From positions 62,001 through 126,000 of the forward strand of contig NZ_JACJKN010000001.1 in NCBI RefSeq assembly GCF_016900775.1: DNA of 64,000 nt. Direction: 5' to 3'. Within the stretch, counting starts at the first letter, position 1. Each line of letters starts with the position of its first letter. Below, one piece after another: positions 6,711-55,074 of this stretch. This DNA comes from Olsenella uli (lineage in GTDB: Bacteria; Actinomycetota; Coriobacteriia; Coriobacteriales; Atopobiaceae). Under the pieces are notes generated by a model. It saw only the letters and a list, made by a program, of their open reading frames with translations. It had not been told where the DNA came from and did not search any database. The translations under genes were made by a program, and so were the position numbers.

Positions 6711-6739
6711 TGCGCCGCTTGCGCGTTCTTCTCGGCAGA

Positions 6740-6824
6740 AATCTCGCACCTAGTTTCTCTTGTACAAAGTAATAGTTTGCTATTACAGTGTTATAGGGAC
6801 AAATAAGTGACTAGGTGCGAGATT
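6740..6824. repeat. Palindromic element B1 upstream of nuclease gene
   Basis: Perfect 15-base arms AATCTCGCACCTAGT and ACTAGGTGCGAGATT enclose an AT-rich centre of about 55 bases containing TACAAAGTA. The arm and the TCTCTTNTACAAAGTA part of the centre recur in element B2 on the other side of the nuclease gene. GTTCTTCTCG lies just outside the left arm at 6725-6734. The right arm ends 14 bases before the nuclease ATG, so the element also holds the gene's promoter region. Confidence 0.85.
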
Positions 6825-6838
6825 GCAAGGGGGGCGCC

Positions 6839-7945
6839 ATGTACGCCTTCGTGAGCCATGAGTCCGCGTGCGACGTCCTGCGCCTGGTCGGCGACGCTCC
6901 CCGCTGGCCGGCATCGGCCCGTCCGCTGCCGTCGGCCAAGGACTGCGTATCGGGCCAGCGGGACTTCAAGAAGTGCCGCCTCGGCGAGCGTCTGAGCTCG
7001 CTCGGGCTGTCCGCGCCTCCCGTTGACCTTATCGTCCCCGCCAAGGGCTCGCGCAGCAGCGGAAGCCTTGTCCGCGCCCACGCGTGGAACGGGGCTGTTC
7101 CGTCGCGTTCGATGCTTGGTCTGGGCGACGGCCTGTTGGTCAGTGGCCCGGAGCTCGTTGTAATCCAGCTCTGCTCTGCCCAGGGCAAGCTCGACGCGCT
7201 GCTGGATGCCCACGCGAGCGCCGTTCGTGCCGAGGTGGAGCTTGCGGCGGAGCTGGGTCTTGAGGAGCGGCCCGCCATTGACCACCCCTTCAAGTGGGAG
7301 CACATCCGTCGGCTCATTGCCGCAACGGTGATTGCTTGCGAGTTCGCGGGCACATATCGGCTCCCCGCAGGCGAGAAGAACGTCAGCTATCGGGCTCCGC
7401 GCCTCATGAGCGCGGTAAGCCTAGAGTCAGCAATAGCCGAGGTGGGGGAGACGCCGGGCACGCGCCGCGCGACGCGCGTCTGCGGCCTCATGCTTGAGGG
7501 CTCCGCCTCCCCCATGGAGACCGTCCTTGGCCTCATGCTCACGCTTCCGGTGGAGTACGGTGGCTTTGGGATTGAGATGCCGCAGCTCAACCGCCCTCTT
7601 GACGTGTCCTCGTGCCGTGGGGAGCTGGCGGACCGCGATGTGGTGACGCCGGACTTTCTCTGGCCGGAAAGGCACGTTGCCATCGAGTACGACAGCGACG
7701 AGTTCCATGCGGCGCGCGGTGCGGGTCAGTCCGCACGAGACGCCGCCAGGGCAAACATCCTGACGGCGCTGGGATATCGGGTGTTCCGCGTGACCTCGCG
7801 GGTGGTGAGGGCGCCCGAGAGCGTGGCGCTTCTCGCCCGCCAGGTTGCCCATGCGCTGGGCGTTGAGCTTGAGCCGACAACTCCGCTGCAGGATCTCCGG
7901 AGAAGAAAGCTCTATCTGGAACTGATGCCTCGGGCTCGGGCGTAG
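6839..7945 (+). CDS. PD-(D/E)XK (DUF559/Vsr-like) endonuclease-domain protein
   Basis: A 368-residue protein whose C-terminal third looks like the DUF559/Vsr-like nuclease fold: PMET with Glu227, TPDF with Asp272, then AIEYDSDEFH with Glu283 and Asp285, followed by ANILTALGYRVFRVTSR. The N-terminal SHESACDVLR resembles a conserved opening shared with the second copy at 50986-52103 (SHTTALEAMR). Start chosen at ATG 6839 because AGGGGGG lies just upstream. The target is unknown. Both flanks carry matching palindromic elements (B1, B2), as if gene and elements move or function together. An in-frame GEKN peptide comes from the CGAGAAGAAC word at 7372. Function as a nuclease is inferred from motifs; the role (defence, repeat mobility or other) is not established. 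Confidence 0.75.
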   Translation: MYAFVSHESACDVLRLVGDAPRWPASARPLPSAKDCVSGQRDFKKCRLGERLSSLGLSAPPVDLIVPAKGSRSSGSLVRAHAWNGAVPSRSMLGLGDGLLVSGPELVVIQLCSAQGKLDALLDAHASAVRAEVELAAELGLEERPAIDHPFKWEHIRRLIAATVIACEFAGTYRLPAGEKNVSYRAPRLMSAVSLESAIAEVGETPGTRRATRVCGLMLEGSASPMETVLGLMLTLPVEYGGFGIEMPQLNRPLDVSSCRGELADRDVVTPDFLWPERHVAIEYDSDEFHAARGAGQSARDAARANILTALGYRVFRVTSRVVRAPESVALLARQVAHALGVELEPTTPLQDLRRRKLYLELMPRARA

Positions 7946-7956
7946 CGCCGTCCCGA

Positions 7957-8073
7957 GGTTCTTCTCGCCAGGAACCTCGCACCTAGTGTCTCTTATACAA
8001 AGTATTACTTTAGTTTCATCATGAAATAGAATCAAAAGAGAGACTAGGTGCGAAGTTCTGGGCGAGAAGAACC
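7957..8073. repeat. Palindromic element B2 downstream of nuclease gene
   Basis: The outer arms start with GGTTCTTCTCGCC and end with GGCGAGAAGAACC; the inner arms carry CTCGCACCTAG and CTAGGTGCGA. About 27 of 30 arm bases pair. The AT-rich centre shares TCTCTTATACAAAGTA with B1. It lies between the convergent ends of the nuclease gene and the DUF711 gene and may act as a two-way terminator. It shows directly that the CGAGAAGAAC word can form the outer edge of a palindromic element. Confidence 0.85.
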
Positions 8074-8088
8074 GCGCGGCCCCAGACG

Positions 8089-46092: not shown

Positions 46093-46306
46093 GTTGTTCT
46101 CAAAAACGGGGTCGTGGCAGCTTGGCGGCAGGCGGCGTTGCCGAAGATGGGGTTGTGGCAGGAGGTCCTTCTCGCCATCTGGCGTTTCTCTGGCGCGTGT
46201 TGTCGAATTGGGGGTTATGGCAGAGGGTTTTCTGCCATAACCCCCACCGCCGCAACGCCGAGGAGCCTCTGGCTGCCATAACCCCATTTTCAGAAGCGGG
46301 ACAACC
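46093..46306. repeat. Repeat array A1 (GTTG ... GGGGTTATGGCAG type)
   Basis: Most of the 437-base gap before the tRNA. Direct units: GTTGTTCTCAAAAACGGGGT plus CGTGGCAG, GTTGCCGAAGATGGGGTTGT plus GGCAG, GTTGTCGAATTGGGGGTTAT plus GGCAG; then inverted units CTGCCATAACCCCCACCGCC plus GCAAC and CTGCCATAACCCCATTTTCA plus a decayed end. Three plus two layout, as in A2. CCTTCTCGCC lies between units. The rest of the gap shows no gene. Confidence 0.85.
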
Positions 46307-48905: not shown

Positions 48906-49119
48906 AAAAGTTTTGCGGCCCCGCGGCCTGAGGGGCGAGAAGAACCGTCGGGCCGCGGGGTTTCCGCGACGTTTCTGGGGCGCAAACGCGGGTTTCGCGC
49001 CGGCTACCAACGTTTCCGGCTCGGCGCGATGCCGTTAACGGCGGCGCGTCCTTCTCGGCGGGCGCGGTGCGGGATGGCAGTATCTGCCGCGTAGTGTCCG
49101 CACGACAGGGGAGGTCGTC

Positions 49120-50769: not shown

Positions 50770-50976
50770 GCTGCGTAAATCCGGGTCGTGGCAATTTCCC
50801 CGCCGCCGGCGTTGCGCGGATGGGGGTTATGGCAGCCCGCACTTCTCGCCACCTGCGGTTCTTCTCGCCCGCGTTGTCCAGATTGGGGTTGTGGCAGCGA
50901 GATTTCTGCCATAACCCCAATCTGGACAACGCCCCGCGGCGCCAGATTGCCATAACCCCGATTCCCGCAACGCGCC
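50770..50976 (+). repeat. Repeat array A2, left flank of the broken nuclease gene
   Basis: Direct units CTGCGTAAATCCGGGTCGTG plus GCAA, GTTGCGCGGATGGGGGTTAT plus GGCAG, GTTGTCCAGATTGGGGTTGT plus GGCAG; inverted units CTGCCATAACCCCAATCTGG plus ACAAC and TTGCCATAACCCCGATTCCC plus GCAAC. The middle pair is a perfect hairpin. It contains GCGGTTCTTCTCGCCC. Read in reverse, its 50770-50867 part is almost identical to 52406-52507 of array A3, so A2 and A3 are inverted copies around the nuclease gene. Confidence 0.9.
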
Positions 50977-50985
50977 GAGTTGACC

Positions 50986-52103
50986 CTACTCCAGGCCGTA
51001 TGCCTCGACGGGCACGACGTCCCATCCGTCATCGATGGCCTGGGGCGCGGCGGCGGGGGAGTTCCTCTCGCCGCGCGCACGCTCGCGGGCGCGACCGTCC
51101 CAGTGGACGCCGTCGATGCGCTCGAGCTCCTCATAGAGCGCCCGGCGCCGTGAGCGTCGCAGCTCGGCGACCTTGCGGGTCACGCGATGCTGGGGCAGCC
51201 CGAGCTCTTGGCGGAGGATGTCGGCAAGCCCGTCCATGTAGGCGAGGCTGCGGTACTGGACCTTCGTTACCACGTGCTCGGTGAGCCCAATGGCCGCGAG
51301 CTCGGTGCTTCGCGCGGCGTCTCGCGCGTGGGCCTGCTCGGTCGCGTGGTCGCGGCCGTCGTACTCGACTGCGGCGATGCGCGGCGCGCCTCCCGCCTCG
51401 CCCGCACGGCCGCGGAGCAGGATGTCGGGCTTTCTCACCCCCGTCCTCATTCGGTCGTGCACGCGGCGCACCTTGAGCGGCTCGTTCATGGAGAGCACCT
51501 CGAGCCCGTATCCTCCAAGCGACCTCCTCAGCCCCAGGCGGAGCGAGAGCTTTGTCTCACGGGGAGAGCCCGATCGCACGCAGGCGTGGCGCAGCGCACG
51601 GCGCACCCGCTGGGTTCCACGCTCCGCTCCGAGGGCGTCGAGGTGCTCGCGGATGCGCTCGGGCGTGGTGAGAGGCGCCCTTCGCTGGAACATCCCCTTC
51701 TCCGACGTGGGGTCGATGGCGTAGATGCCAAGAAGCTCCGAGAGCAGGTAGATGAGCTCGAGGTCCGTGAGCTGTGGCGCCATGACCACAGGGAGGTGCT
51801 CGGGCGAGATGCACCGCACGCCCGGGGCAACCTCAAAGGCGGACCCAGGCGGAAGGTCGGGGGAGGCGCGGGTGTGGACCAGCGATCTTCTCGCTCGAGG
51901 CGTCCCCTGCGAGACGAGCAGGTGAAGGGGCTTGCTCGCTTGGGCCAGCTCGGGGACGGTCTGGATGAGTCGCGCAGTTTCCGCGTTGTCCGGTACTTGC
52001 CCGGGAACGTTGCCGTCACAGCGTCCCCCTTTTCGAGACGCCAGCGCAGCCGCTTGCTGCGCATCGCCTCCAGGGCCGTGGTATGCGAGAGAAGGATGCT
52101 CAT
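50986..52103 (-). pseudogene. PD-(D/E)XK (DUF559/Vsr-like) nuclease gene with a frame break
   Basis: Same family as 6839-7945. From ATG 52103 the minus strand reads MSILLSHTTALEAMRSKRL and WRLEKG, then the family-like sequence continues in the -1 frame (VPDNAETARLIQTVPELAQ, KPLHLLVSQGTPRARRS, GIYAIDPTSEKGMFQR). The nuclease motifs are intact in the second frame: SPRETKLSL, RKPDILLRG, AAVEYDGRDH. The break lies at CGAAAAGGGGGAC (about 52022-52034), where A AAG GGG would be a slippery heptamer for -1 slippage. It may therefore be a pseudogene, a homopolymer sequencing error, or a gene using frameshifting. Stop at 50986. Flanked by arrays A2 and A3. Confidence 0.75.
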
Positions 52104-52216
52104 GGCTTGAGGCTAGGGCATCGCCTCGGCGTGGGGGTTTAGATTCGAAGAAAGCTGTTCTCGCAGCTGACGGGCTGCTGTCGCGGTGCTGACGAGAAAG
52201 GCCATCTGCGCAGGTC

Positions 52217-52256
52217 AGTTCACTTGACATAAGTTAATGGAATGAAATAGTGAACT
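52217..52256. promoter_or_regulatory. AT-rich inverted repeat upstream of the broken nuclease gene
   Basis: AGTTCACT and AGTGAACT are perfect 8-base arms around 24 AT-rich bases that contain TTGACA. It lies about 115 bases before the nuclease start (minus strand) and 45 before array A3. It could be a promoter with an operator. The rest of the 410-base gap is array A3. Confidence 0.5.
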
Positions 52257-52300
52257 ATTATTTGTGGAGGGAACGTGTTGCGAGCGCCGCGGCTCGGCGC

Positions 52301-52505
52301 CGTTGTCAAAATTGGGGCCGTGGCAGCCTGGCGCCGAGGCGCGTTGCGAAGATCGGGGTCGTGGCAGAAATCGCGCTGCCACGACCCCGTTTTCCGCAAC
52401 AGCGCCGAGAAGAACCGCAGGTGGCGAGAAGTGCGGGCTGCCATAACCCCCACCCGCGCAACGCCGGCGGCGGGGGAATTGCCACGACTCCGATTTACGT
52501 AGCGG
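52301..52505 (-). repeat. Repeat array A3, right flank of the broken nuclease gene
   Basis: Direct units GTTGTCAAAATTGGGGCCGT plus GGCAG and GTTGCGAAGATCGGGGTCGT plus GGCAG; inverted units CTGCCACGACCCCGTTTTCC plus GCAAC, CTGCCATAACCCCCACCCGC plus GCAAC, and TTGCCACGACTCCGATTTAC plus GTAGC. In reverse orientation it matches A2 over about 100 bases with few differences. CCGAGAAGAACCGCAGGTGG lies at the centre. It ends 8 bases before the stop of the JetD-like gene. Confidence 0.9.
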
Positions 52506-52513
52506 GTCAAACC

Positions 52514-53773
52514 CTACAGGTCCGCAGCCGTGACGATTTCCTGGGGGATGAGCCGCGCTCCCTCCACGACGGCGCGCAGGTACGCGGCCTCCTTTGGCTT
52601 GAGGACGGGCTCCAGCAGCTCGAGCCCCTCGATGCGCACGCCGCCCTGGTCCGTCTCCTCGTTTTCCAGCGGATCGGGGAAGCGCCTCATCGCGCGCCTC
52701 AGCATGAGGCGATACGCAGGGACGAACGGCTCCACCCCGAAGCGCCCGTCGGCCAGGGAGGCGAGCTTGGCCAGGATGGAGAGTCCGGCGCGGTCGATGT
52801 CGCCCCAGTAGAGCACGCGCACGTCCTCGGCCCCGAGCGAGGCGATGAGGTCGGGCAGCTTGTGCGGGTCGTCCACGATGTAGCCGTTGCCAAAGACCAC
52901 GCCGTGGACCCGCTCGTCGAGGATGCGCTTGCGGCCCTCCAGGAACATCGCGTTTCTCATGTTGACCCAGGGGTCAAGGTTCTCGGAGACAACGAGCCGC
53001 AGGTGGCGGTGGTGCTTGGGGATGTGGTGCATGAGCTCGAGCTTGGTCTGCGGGCGCGTGGCCACCGCGTCCGAGAGGCCCATGAGGTGGAGCAGCTTGC
53101 GGCCGTCCGAGTCAAGCGCCAGGAACTTCTCGTCCCCGAAGAGGCGGTAGGAGAGCTCGCGCGTGCTGAGGGTGCCGTCGCCAATGGAGACCGATTCCGC
53201 GAGCGCGGAGTCGAGGGCACGGAGCTCGCGCTCAAAGCGGACGTAGGCGTCGGGCGTGCTGAGCAGCCAGCCGTTGATCCACAGGCGCGGGTCGAGGTCG
53301 ATGATCTTGCGGCGGATGTCCTCGAGCTCGGGCGTCTGCTTGCGTACGGTGTCCAGGCCGGAGAGGCTGCGGGCGGGCCGGCGCGCGGGAGGCCGGGGGC
53401 GCTCCGCGCGGGCGATGGCCTGGGGGCGGTCCCCCGGCCGGGCGTTCTTCTCGCCTGTGCCCTTCTCGCGCACGCCCTTCTTGCCCGTGTCCTTTGGCGG
53501 TGTTCCGCCGGCGAGAAGAACGTAGCCCTCGCCGCCCTTCTCCCGCTCAAGCACGTGCAGGTCGAGCAGGGCCTTGAGCGTGAGCTCGCCCGTCCCGTAC
53601 TTGGTGAGGACGCCCATCACGTCGTCTCGTCCGAGCGGGTTCTTGCGCAGGCGGACGAGCCCGCTTGCGATGCCGCCCGAGACGCTGCGCTGCTGAACGG
53701 GCAGCTCCCTGCTGAGGAGCTTTGCCAGGGAGACGATCGCGTCGTGCTCCTGCTCGGTGAGTTTCTGTGCCAT
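52514..53773 (-). CDS. JetD-like TOPRIM-domain protein (DUF2220 type), orphan
   Basis: 419 residues. The C-terminal half resembles the TOPRIM nuclease domain of Wadjet protein JetD: RLVVSENLDPW with Glu264 and VLYWGDIDRAGLSILAKL with Asp325 and Asp327. The N-terminal part (1-85) may be a winged-helix region. A disordered, Lys/Arg/Pro-rich linker (about 91-135) contains GEKN from one CGAGAAGAAC word, and YVLLAGG from a second. Real Wadjet systems also have JetA, JetB and JetC; none is nearby. The function is therefore uncertain: an isolated plasmid- or DNA-cleaving factor, or a relative with a different role. ATG 53773 follows AAAGG. Confidence 0.65.
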   Translation of the reverse strand: MAQKLTEQEHDAIVSLAKLLSRELPVQQRSVSGGIASGLVRLRKNPLGRDDVMGVLTKYGTGELTLKALLDLHVLEREKGGEGYVLLAGGTPPKDTGKKGVREKGTGEKNARPGDRPQAIARAERPRPPARRPARSLSGLDTVRKQTPELEDIRRKIIDLDPRLWINGWLLSTPDAYVRFERELRALDSALAESVSIGDGTLSTRELSYRLFGDEKFLALDSDGRKLLHLMGLSDAVATRPQTKLELMHHIPKHHRHLRLVVSENLDPWVNMRNAMFLEGRKRILDERVHGVVFGNGYIVDDPHKLPDLIASLGAEDVRVLYWGDIDRAGLSILAKLASLADGRFGVEPFVPAYRLMLRRAMRRFPDPLENEETDQGGVRIEGLELLEPVLKPKEAAYLRAVVEGARLIPQEIVTAADL

Positions 53774-54474: not shown

Positions 54475-54894
54475 ATGGCGGAACGACTGACTGAGGAGCT
54501 GCTCGACGAGCTCCTCTCCACCTCCGACCTCGAGGGCTACCTCGAGGAGCACGAGCCGGGTGGCCGCACGCTCTCCGAGTACCTGCGGCAGCTCCTTGCC
54601 GAGAAGGGGCTCGAGCGCTCGCGCGTGGTGCGCATGGCCAACCTCAACGACACCTTTGGCTATCAGATCTTTCAGGGCACGCGCCATCCGAGCAGGGACA
54701 AAGTTCTACAGATCGCCTTTGCCATGGCCCTCACGCTGCGCGAGACCAACCGCGCGCTCAAGGCCTCCGGCGCGAACGAGCTCTACTGCAAGGACCGCCG
54801 CGACGCAATCATCATCTTCTGCCTCGACCGCGGCTGCTCGCTCCAGAAGGTGAACGAGGAGCTCTATCGCTTTGGCGAGCGGACCATCTGTTAG
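54475..54894 (+). CDS. Helix-turn-helix protein paired with a kinase gene
   Basis: 139 residues. SEYLRQLLAEKGLERSRVVRMANLNDTFGYQIFQGTRHPSRDKVLQIAFAMALTLRETNRALKASG is an XRE-like helix-turn-helix region. The C-terminal 50 residues (KDRRDAIIIFCLDRGCSLQKVNEELYRFGE) look like a regulatory or dimer part. GGAGAGGGG precedes ATG 54475. The next gene is a Ser/Thr kinase; similar small HTH/kinase pairs occur in other Firmicutes and actinobacteria. It could be a kinase substrate. Array A4 separates the two. Confidence 0.75.
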   Translation: MAERLTEELLDELLSTSDLEGYLEEHEPGGRTLSEYLRQLLAEKGLERSRVVRMANLNDTFGYQIFQGTRHPSRDKVLQIAFAMALTLRETNRALKASGANELYCKDRRDAIIIFCLDRGCSLQKVNEELYRFGERTIC

Positions 54895-54910
54895 GGTCTG
54901 CGATTCTGGC

Positions 54911-55074
54911 GCGTTGCCGATTTGGGGGTCGTGGCAGGATTTGGGCTGCCACGACCCCGCATTTGGCAACAGGAGCGAGAAGAACCCCAGCTCGCGAGAA
55001 GTGCCGGCTGCCATAACCCCGCTTTTCTCAACGCGTGCCGAGACGAGGTTGCCACGACTCCAGATTGCGCAGCG
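54911..55074 (-). repeat. Repeat array A4
   Basis: Unit GTTGCCGATTTGGGGGTCGT plus GGCAG followed by inverted units CTGCCACGACCCCGCATTTG plus GCAAC, CTGCCATAACCCCGCTTTTC plus TCAAC, and TTGCCACGACTCCAGATTGC plus GCAGC. It carries GAGCGAGAAGAACC at its centre and reads in the same direction as A3. It occupies nearly the whole gap between the HTH and kinase genes. Confidence 0.85.

Follow-up and report, generated by a model that had tools for sequence, protein, structure and literature searches.

Among described systems, RAYT and REP come closest to the locus analyzed here: the gene of the enzyme lies between inverted palindromes, copies of these are scattered, and the enzyme and its repeats co-evolve (PMC2817692, PMC3733652). 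RAYT homologs meeting the criteria of one of these works were found there only in gammaproteobacteria (PMC2817692), and REPIN populations persist vertically (PMC8049555). As regards nucleases, the EDxHD class of Vsr-like enzymes is named in PMC3943268. In the window, by which we mean the whole 64-kb stretch of DNA that was analyzed, a nuclease gene is set between two copies of a palindromic element (Table 1). An earlier note on this DNA had proposed a nuclease/repeat system analogous to RAYT and REP, with solo, non-autonomous copies, and this proposal is supported by our results, with movement catalyzed by the nuclease being an inference. We observed that lineage-specific multi-unit palindromes bracket a conserved nuclease, that solo copies are dispersed, and that related species have empty, solo, and full sites. 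On balance, we favor the reading that A2, the nuclease gene, and A3 belong to a class-wide set of selfish, REPtron-like nuclease-repeat modules, of which the recognition, cutting, and copying steps are inferred.

Table 1. Positions of the module, the solo A copies, and other features in the window
Feature	Position	Strand	Remark
Left repeat of second module, TCGCACCTAGTNTCTCTT type	6721..6820	.	
Second, divergent nuclease-family gene, about 30% identical	6839..7945	+	Own unrelated flanking repeats
Right repeat of second module, TCGCACCTAGTNTCTCTT type, internally palindromic	7954..8077	.	
A1, solo copy of A element	46096..46297	+	Decayed orthologous copy in G008
A2, left arm of module, 202-bp palindromic element	50770..50971	+	
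A2 units	50770-, 50811-, 50873-, 50907+, 50948+		Spacer with CACCTGCGGTTCTTCTCGCC
Vsr/EDxHD-like (MTES_1575/DUF559-like) nuclease gene, frameshifted	50986..52103	-	Between A2 and A3
A3, right arm of module, inverted second copy of element	52302..52503	-	
JetD-like gene (Wadjet JetD_C, DUF2399)	52514-53773		
A4, solo copy, one end unit missing	54872..55073	-	Partly deleted in G008, complete in G015

The A element and the nuclease gene

A1 to A4 are copies of one 202-bp element of fixed geometry, with five 24-nt units of the form GTTGCG-N6-GGGGTYRTGGCA at offsets 0, 41, and 103 (inverted) and 137 and 178 (forward), and a spacer whose consensus is close to CAACTGGGCGTTCTTCTCGCC. In the window, we counted 17 occurrences of the unit motif TGCCAYRACYCC, where 0.05 would be expected. 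In nearly all of 49 copies from three genomes, the unit slots deviate by no more than 1 base from these offsets, and one end unit is missing from some copies. The arrays had been described as being built of small units, which holds for the 24-nt units, though these make up a defined palindromic element and not a loose tandem array. As had also been noted, A2 and A3 are in opposite orientation around the frameshifted nuclease, and A1 and A4 are further copies that have no nuclease. The structural likeness of A2 and A3 (167 of 202 positions identical, or 83%; 204 nt and 83% by the repeat finder) is uneven, with the near-identity seen earlier confirmed for the matched half (93/98) and a lower value for the remaining half (74/104), while the other pairs among A1 to A4 are 57-68% identical. 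Homologous recombination between the repeats has probably kept A2 and A3 alike.

Within the 26 A copies of the own genome (G000), we found that the arms covary, with a z of 7.1 over the unit for U3-U4 and of 3.2 in the variable core for U1-U5. Wobble mismatches in the A elements number 74 and 79 on the two strands, and this lack of strand preference argues for palindromes that act as DNA rather than RNA; covariation without strand bias would likewise point to palindromy at the DNA level. A structured RNA had been considered as a candidate and was rejected on the equal wobble counts and on an Rfam search with the A arrays, which gave no match.

The nuclease family comprises proteins of roughly 370 aa, in which a Vsr-like nuclease-type region at the C-terminus follows a distinct N-terminal half. 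In the window copy, the first residues are in the frame of ORF 51528-52103 and the remainder in that of ORF 50986-52230, while the gene at the same site is open (about 372 aa) in G008 (Thermophilibacter provencensis) and G015 (Olsenella sp. SW781). Pfam matches were only weak, with best E-values of 1.4e-4 for REase_MTES_1575 (PF18741) and 1.9e-3 for DUF559 (PF04480), and the window-type protein reached 14-15 bits against a cut-off of 38. No named family was above its cut-off, nothing significant was found in NCBIfam or PHROGs, and PADLOC, searched for anti-phage defense, likewise gave no significant match. Nearly invariant in 79 family members are S180-P-x-E183, D227, [ED]247-Y-x-G-x-x-H253, and D262-x-x-R265, an order that we read, from our own comparison of residues, as that of the EDxHD/Vsr-like enzymes. 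In a profile search, the catalytic region weakly matched 3r3p, which is annotated as 'Mobile intron protein' (E = 1.4). An AlphaFold model of the nuclease (pLDDT 43) was too poor and remained unused for a fold search. Between intact homologues, dN/dS is 0.12-0.28, which shows that the nuclease is under purifying selection. The own genome has 13 nuclease-family paralogs, and a class-wide search located the gene in 153 of 248 genomes and 54 of 110 genera.

As to the surroundings, no other Wadjet genes were seen beside the JetD-like gene, which is present in 25 of the 31 genus genomes and is apparently core. In G002, G007, and G021, glnK directly adjoins it, with no nuclease in between. Separately, we noticed that a 10-12-mer, GCGAGAAGAACG/C, is scattered densely through the window (e.g., at 48936, 53443, 53512, 7957, and 8063), often between genes as inverted pairs and next to or within the repeat arrays. 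Counts of short-mers in the 64 kb were 26 for CGAGAAGAAC and 17 for CGAGAAGGAC, with C preceding every GAGAAGAAC. The density of this mer extrapolates to more than 1,000 copies per genome and is reminiscent of DNA uptake sequences, though a function is not established.

Flank repeats and their relation to nuclease lineages

About 26 A copies are dispersed in the own genome, yet none lies near the other 12 nuclease paralogs, and A elements were found in 3 of 31 genus genomes as opposed to 29 of 31 for the nuclease. By a genome-wide pattern scan, the strict form of the A hairpin is narrowly distributed; given the pattern used, this narrowness holds for that form and not for the whole class. The bracket could therefore be imagined as chance, with two copies of an unrelated MITE-like family at this place being kept alike by gene conversion. 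The absence of A elements from the other paralogs is compatible with this, an A pair within 1.5 kb has a P of about 0.33 by chance, and the A2/A3 similarity is patchy between species. What tells against chance is found in four relatives (G001, G003, G025, and G030), where the orthologous nuclease stands beside the same JetD-like neighbor without A elements, bracketed instead by long inverted repeats of other sequences. These differing brackets overturned an interim view that the A elements are unrelated to the nuclease. Since bracketing also holds at about three quarters of the genus loci, we find a chance bracket scarcely credible.

This figure comes from a comparison of the 800 bp to the left with the 800 bp to the right of each gene, at a threshold of at least 40 bits. 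A flank repeat in common was present at 61 of 81 genus nuclease loci and at 1 of 134 random positions; with duplicates removed, the counts were 60 of 79 loci and 2 of 57 control genes, which were restricted to those having intergenic DNA to their left and right (Fisher, 5e-19). This P is too small because orthologous loci were counted in several species and are not independent. In the own genome alone, 7 of the 13 paralogs compare with 2 of the 57 controls (P = 4e-5), and elsewhere in the class, across further genera and families, 14 of 38 loci compare with 1 of 100. The repeats are inverted at many loci and direct at others, while at this threshold a flank repeat is missing from about a quarter of the loci in the genus and from the majority of those in other families. 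Two findings that the earlier note would have counted as refutation thus failed to appear: arrays are not placed at random relative to the nuclease, and a merely local duplication does not account for the own paralogs, most of the genus, and the loci in other genera. Its association of array and nuclease, however, stands across the nuclease family and not for the A family alone, which has none beyond this locus in the own genome because each paralog has a different repeat.

Two loci deserve separate mention. L158 (G028, contig C35) was left out as a flank query because nuclease-like sequence seemed to be present in its left flank; this apparent antisense sequence in one module flank suggests adjacent or nested modules. 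Outside the genus but in the same family, at L321 (G197), the nuclease lies between 150-bp inverted arrays of TGTGATGTACTTTT units that are 96% identical, and this module has perhaps been active recently.

In the bracketing repeats, units of about 24-28 bp are ordered palindromically into arrays of roughly 100-400 bp, and the repeat sequence varies by nuclease lineage (e.g., TCCTGAAAANNGGCGACTTGGCAG, GGTGCCGGAATCCGGCCATATGCGTG, and CTTGACGATTCGGGGCTCGTCTCAGG), with no constant tetranucleotide head among the units of different families. Nuclease pairs with at least 70% identity always have their repeats in common, whereas those below 45% almost never do. Moreover, among the matches listed, a repeat family is present in 9 of 11 other genomes with an at least 70% identical nuclease and in 12 of 319 otherwise, both being lower bounds, and this is in line with the earlier expectation that each nuclease subfamily tracks one repeat family. 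Solo copies of the L175-type repeat amount to at least about ten in each of G022, G017, and G018, and related genomes differ in having or lacking whole repeat families. Co-divergence of enzyme and repeat is, though, partly expected from vertical descent alone.

Site states, age of the A family, and a possible mechanism

Empty sites, for which the earlier note had suggested a look at close strains, were found in related species, along with solo and full ones. In G016 and G003, the L248 site is empty, its conserved flanks lying 47-57 bp apart, while G020 has one solo family repeat there and G024 has repeat-nuclease-repeat. At the L175/L275 site, there is a solo repeat in G018 and a full module in G022 and G017, and between the latter two, the nuclease segment is inverted between its inverted repeats, with flanks 92-93% identical. 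Both the solo-versus-full and the inversion states at this site could come about through homologous recombination between the repeats, and the inversion could be a switch or plain recombination. In addition, L158 and L161 share 78% identity across the whole module up to the outer repeat edge and no homology in the upstream flank, which was the only side compared, as the downstream flank of L158 is too short. The site states fit gain and loss of a unit that ends at the repeats. Neither a target-site duplication nor a fresh insertion was found, the junctions of the empty sites having diverged too far for the ends to be placed.

In the step from a solo to a full site, a single repeat comes to stand on either side and the flanks are otherwise unchanged, and this is also what homing would give. 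Here, the nuclease would cut solo repeats as the empty target, and the repeat-flanked gene would be copied in by homologous repair, with the repeats serving as target sites and homology arms and solo copies spreading by other means. The E...D...[ED]YxG..H...D pattern resembles the EDxHD/Vsr-like class (PMC3943268), though the match to 3r3p is weak. Against this, the nuclease site is intergenic, between repeats, with no intron, intein, or interrupted host gene; an intact target flanking both sides would stay cleavable; and the rise of solo repeats to about 26 copies is left unexplained. We regard homing by homologous repair as the closest rival, albeit an unlikely one.

Some sites are host to more than one lineage. 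At the L156 site, five genomes (G029, G020, G027, G016, and G028) have modules of different lineages, while in G030 and G003 the site is occupied by a solo repeat that belongs to a further family; at another site, G017 has a solo L175-type repeat where G022 has another nuclease-family module, flanked by inverted repeats of its own. That one site has different modules, or solo repeats, depending on the species would agree with nuclease and repeats being functionally uncoupled passengers with integration hotspots (recombination-prone intergenic sites) in common. We give this very little credence, as it leaves unexplained both the private repeat of each nuclease lineage and the recurrence of solo repeats mainly in genomes with the matching nuclease, and just 2 of the 57 control genes have a flank repeat in common.

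Turning to the age of the A family, most A copies are common to orthologous sites in G008/G015, some of them decayed or partly deleted, and from this vertical sharing the family is inferred to be old. Because the A-type nuclease is frameshifted in G000, the family is probably no longer mobile there. Most copies of the F6 repeat family are likewise common to orthologous sites between species, and movement is therefore taken to be rare or old. A recent A insertion with target duplication was rejected, as the sites compared with G008/G015 showed orthologous or decayed copies; only at L084 is the region absent from both relatives, without a clean junction. Around A1, the flanks of G000 have their counterparts in G008 at two places, though a rearrangement at A1 itself was dismissed since the decayed A1 copy is still there, and only an old rearrangement near A1 is implied. 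As a side observation, a stretch up to 99.5% identical, with an identical A copy included, joins L074 (G000:C2:199800-205900) and L124 (G008:C3:2607800-2613900), other compared flanks of the two species being mostly about 85-95% identical, and a recent transfer is probable. For F6, two direct repeats enclose about 1 kb in L379 (G022) and two repeats also occur in L390 (G018), while L382 (G017) has a single one at the corresponding place, as would follow from repeat-mediated deletion or gain.

At orthologous A copies, divergence is 7.4% at motif positions, 18% in the core, 16% in the spacer, and 13% in the flank, where the low motif value is partly ascertainment, as the copies were found by motif. 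Conserved motif positions, vertical persistence, an intergenic location of nearly all copies, and a fixed spacing near whole helical turns (41 and 62 bp) are all features that binding sites might have. Accordingly, the repeats could be regulatory or chromosome-organizing sites of the protein (e.g., for autoregulation through an N-terminal DNA-binding region), the dispersed copies a regulon, and the nuclease a defense or housekeeping enzyme with nothing mobile about it. However, the gene has repeats on either side, including the side beyond its stop codon, and A copies are as often in convergent gaps as elsewhere (18 convergent, 24 tandem, and 7 divergent). With flanking on both sides and solo copies lacking a consistent position relative to promoters, a purely regulatory role becomes less likely, and whole repeat families differ in presence between related genomes while the defense library gave no match. 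In our judgment, the regulatory reading is improbable.

Under the nuclease-repeat module that we prefer, the nuclease would recognize the roughly 24-bp units of its own repeat, whose arrangement may let two or more subunits bind or the palindrome extrude as a hairpin. It would then cut or nick there, for which no biochemical evidence of contact exists, and other copies or sites may receive the repeat, or the gene with its flanking repeats, through repair or recombination at the break. As in a REPtron, autonomy would belong to the bracketed gene, with solo repeats as non-autonomous copies, and because each enzyme must recognize its own repeat, we propose that the two diverge together. The wider claim is that of a new mobile or selfish class, wherein a Vsr/EDxHD-like PD-(D/E)XK nuclease, and not a transposase, propagates its own private palindromic array and itself, with many distinct lineages per genome, each having its own repeat code. 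This we hold to be evenly poised between true and false, with mobility catalyzed by the nuclease inferred and not shown. If true, PD-(D/E)XK/Vsr-like nucleases would be added, independently of RAYTs, to the HUH, DDE, and serine/tyrosine enzymes that drive the propagation of repeats, and the many paralogs with private repeats per genome would form a natural library of enzyme-site pairs, making the evolution of new DNA specificities in such enzymes testable. It would also account for much intergenic repeat DNA in the Coriobacteriia, a class of bacteria from the gut, and a large protein family so far without annotation would gain a function.

Comparison with known systems

No published description of such nuclease-repeat modules was found in the open-access literature searched, subscription papers being outside the scope of the search. 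The likeness to RAYT/REP (REPtrons and REPINs, with IS200/IS605-like TnpA-REP) is in enzyme-specific palindromes, inverted at many loci, that bracket the gene, in dispersed extragenic solo copies that can cluster near it, and in the co-divergence of enzyme and repeat. In contrast, the enzyme is a PD-(D/E)XK/Vsr-like nuclease and not a Y1 HUH transposase, the repeats are roughly 100-400-bp arrays of 24-28-bp units without the GT(A/G)G head, and the hosts are Coriobacteriia. A Y1 HUH transposase (PF01797) is absent between the repeats, and the PF01797 genes of these genomes sit at other loci; a RAYT as the driver of the A elements was ruled out, as such genes occur in most genomes irrespective of A elements. 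Lacking both the Y1 enzyme and the GT(A/G)G head, the module works like a REPtron but is not one.

With TIRtrons, and with insertion sequences and their MITEs, the module has in common a gene between terminal inverted repeats and non-autonomous copies, but it has no DDE or HUH transposase (none of a known class was detected between the repeats with Pfam, NCBIfam, and PHROGs), its repeats are often direct as well, and no target-site duplication was found at the diverged junctions. EDxHD/Vsr-like homing endonucleases such as I-Bth0305I are alike in conserved residues as we read them, in the weak catalytic-region match, and in selfish nuclease logic, yet differ in that the present nuclease is without an intron, intein, or split host gene and has private repeats on both sides and dispersed solo repeats. 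As for the REase_MTES_1575/DUF559 proteins, the C-terminal nuclease-like region is similar, if only by weak matches, while the N-terminal half is distinct and the literature searched holds no repeat association for them. The general logic of an enzyme with private repeats is already known.
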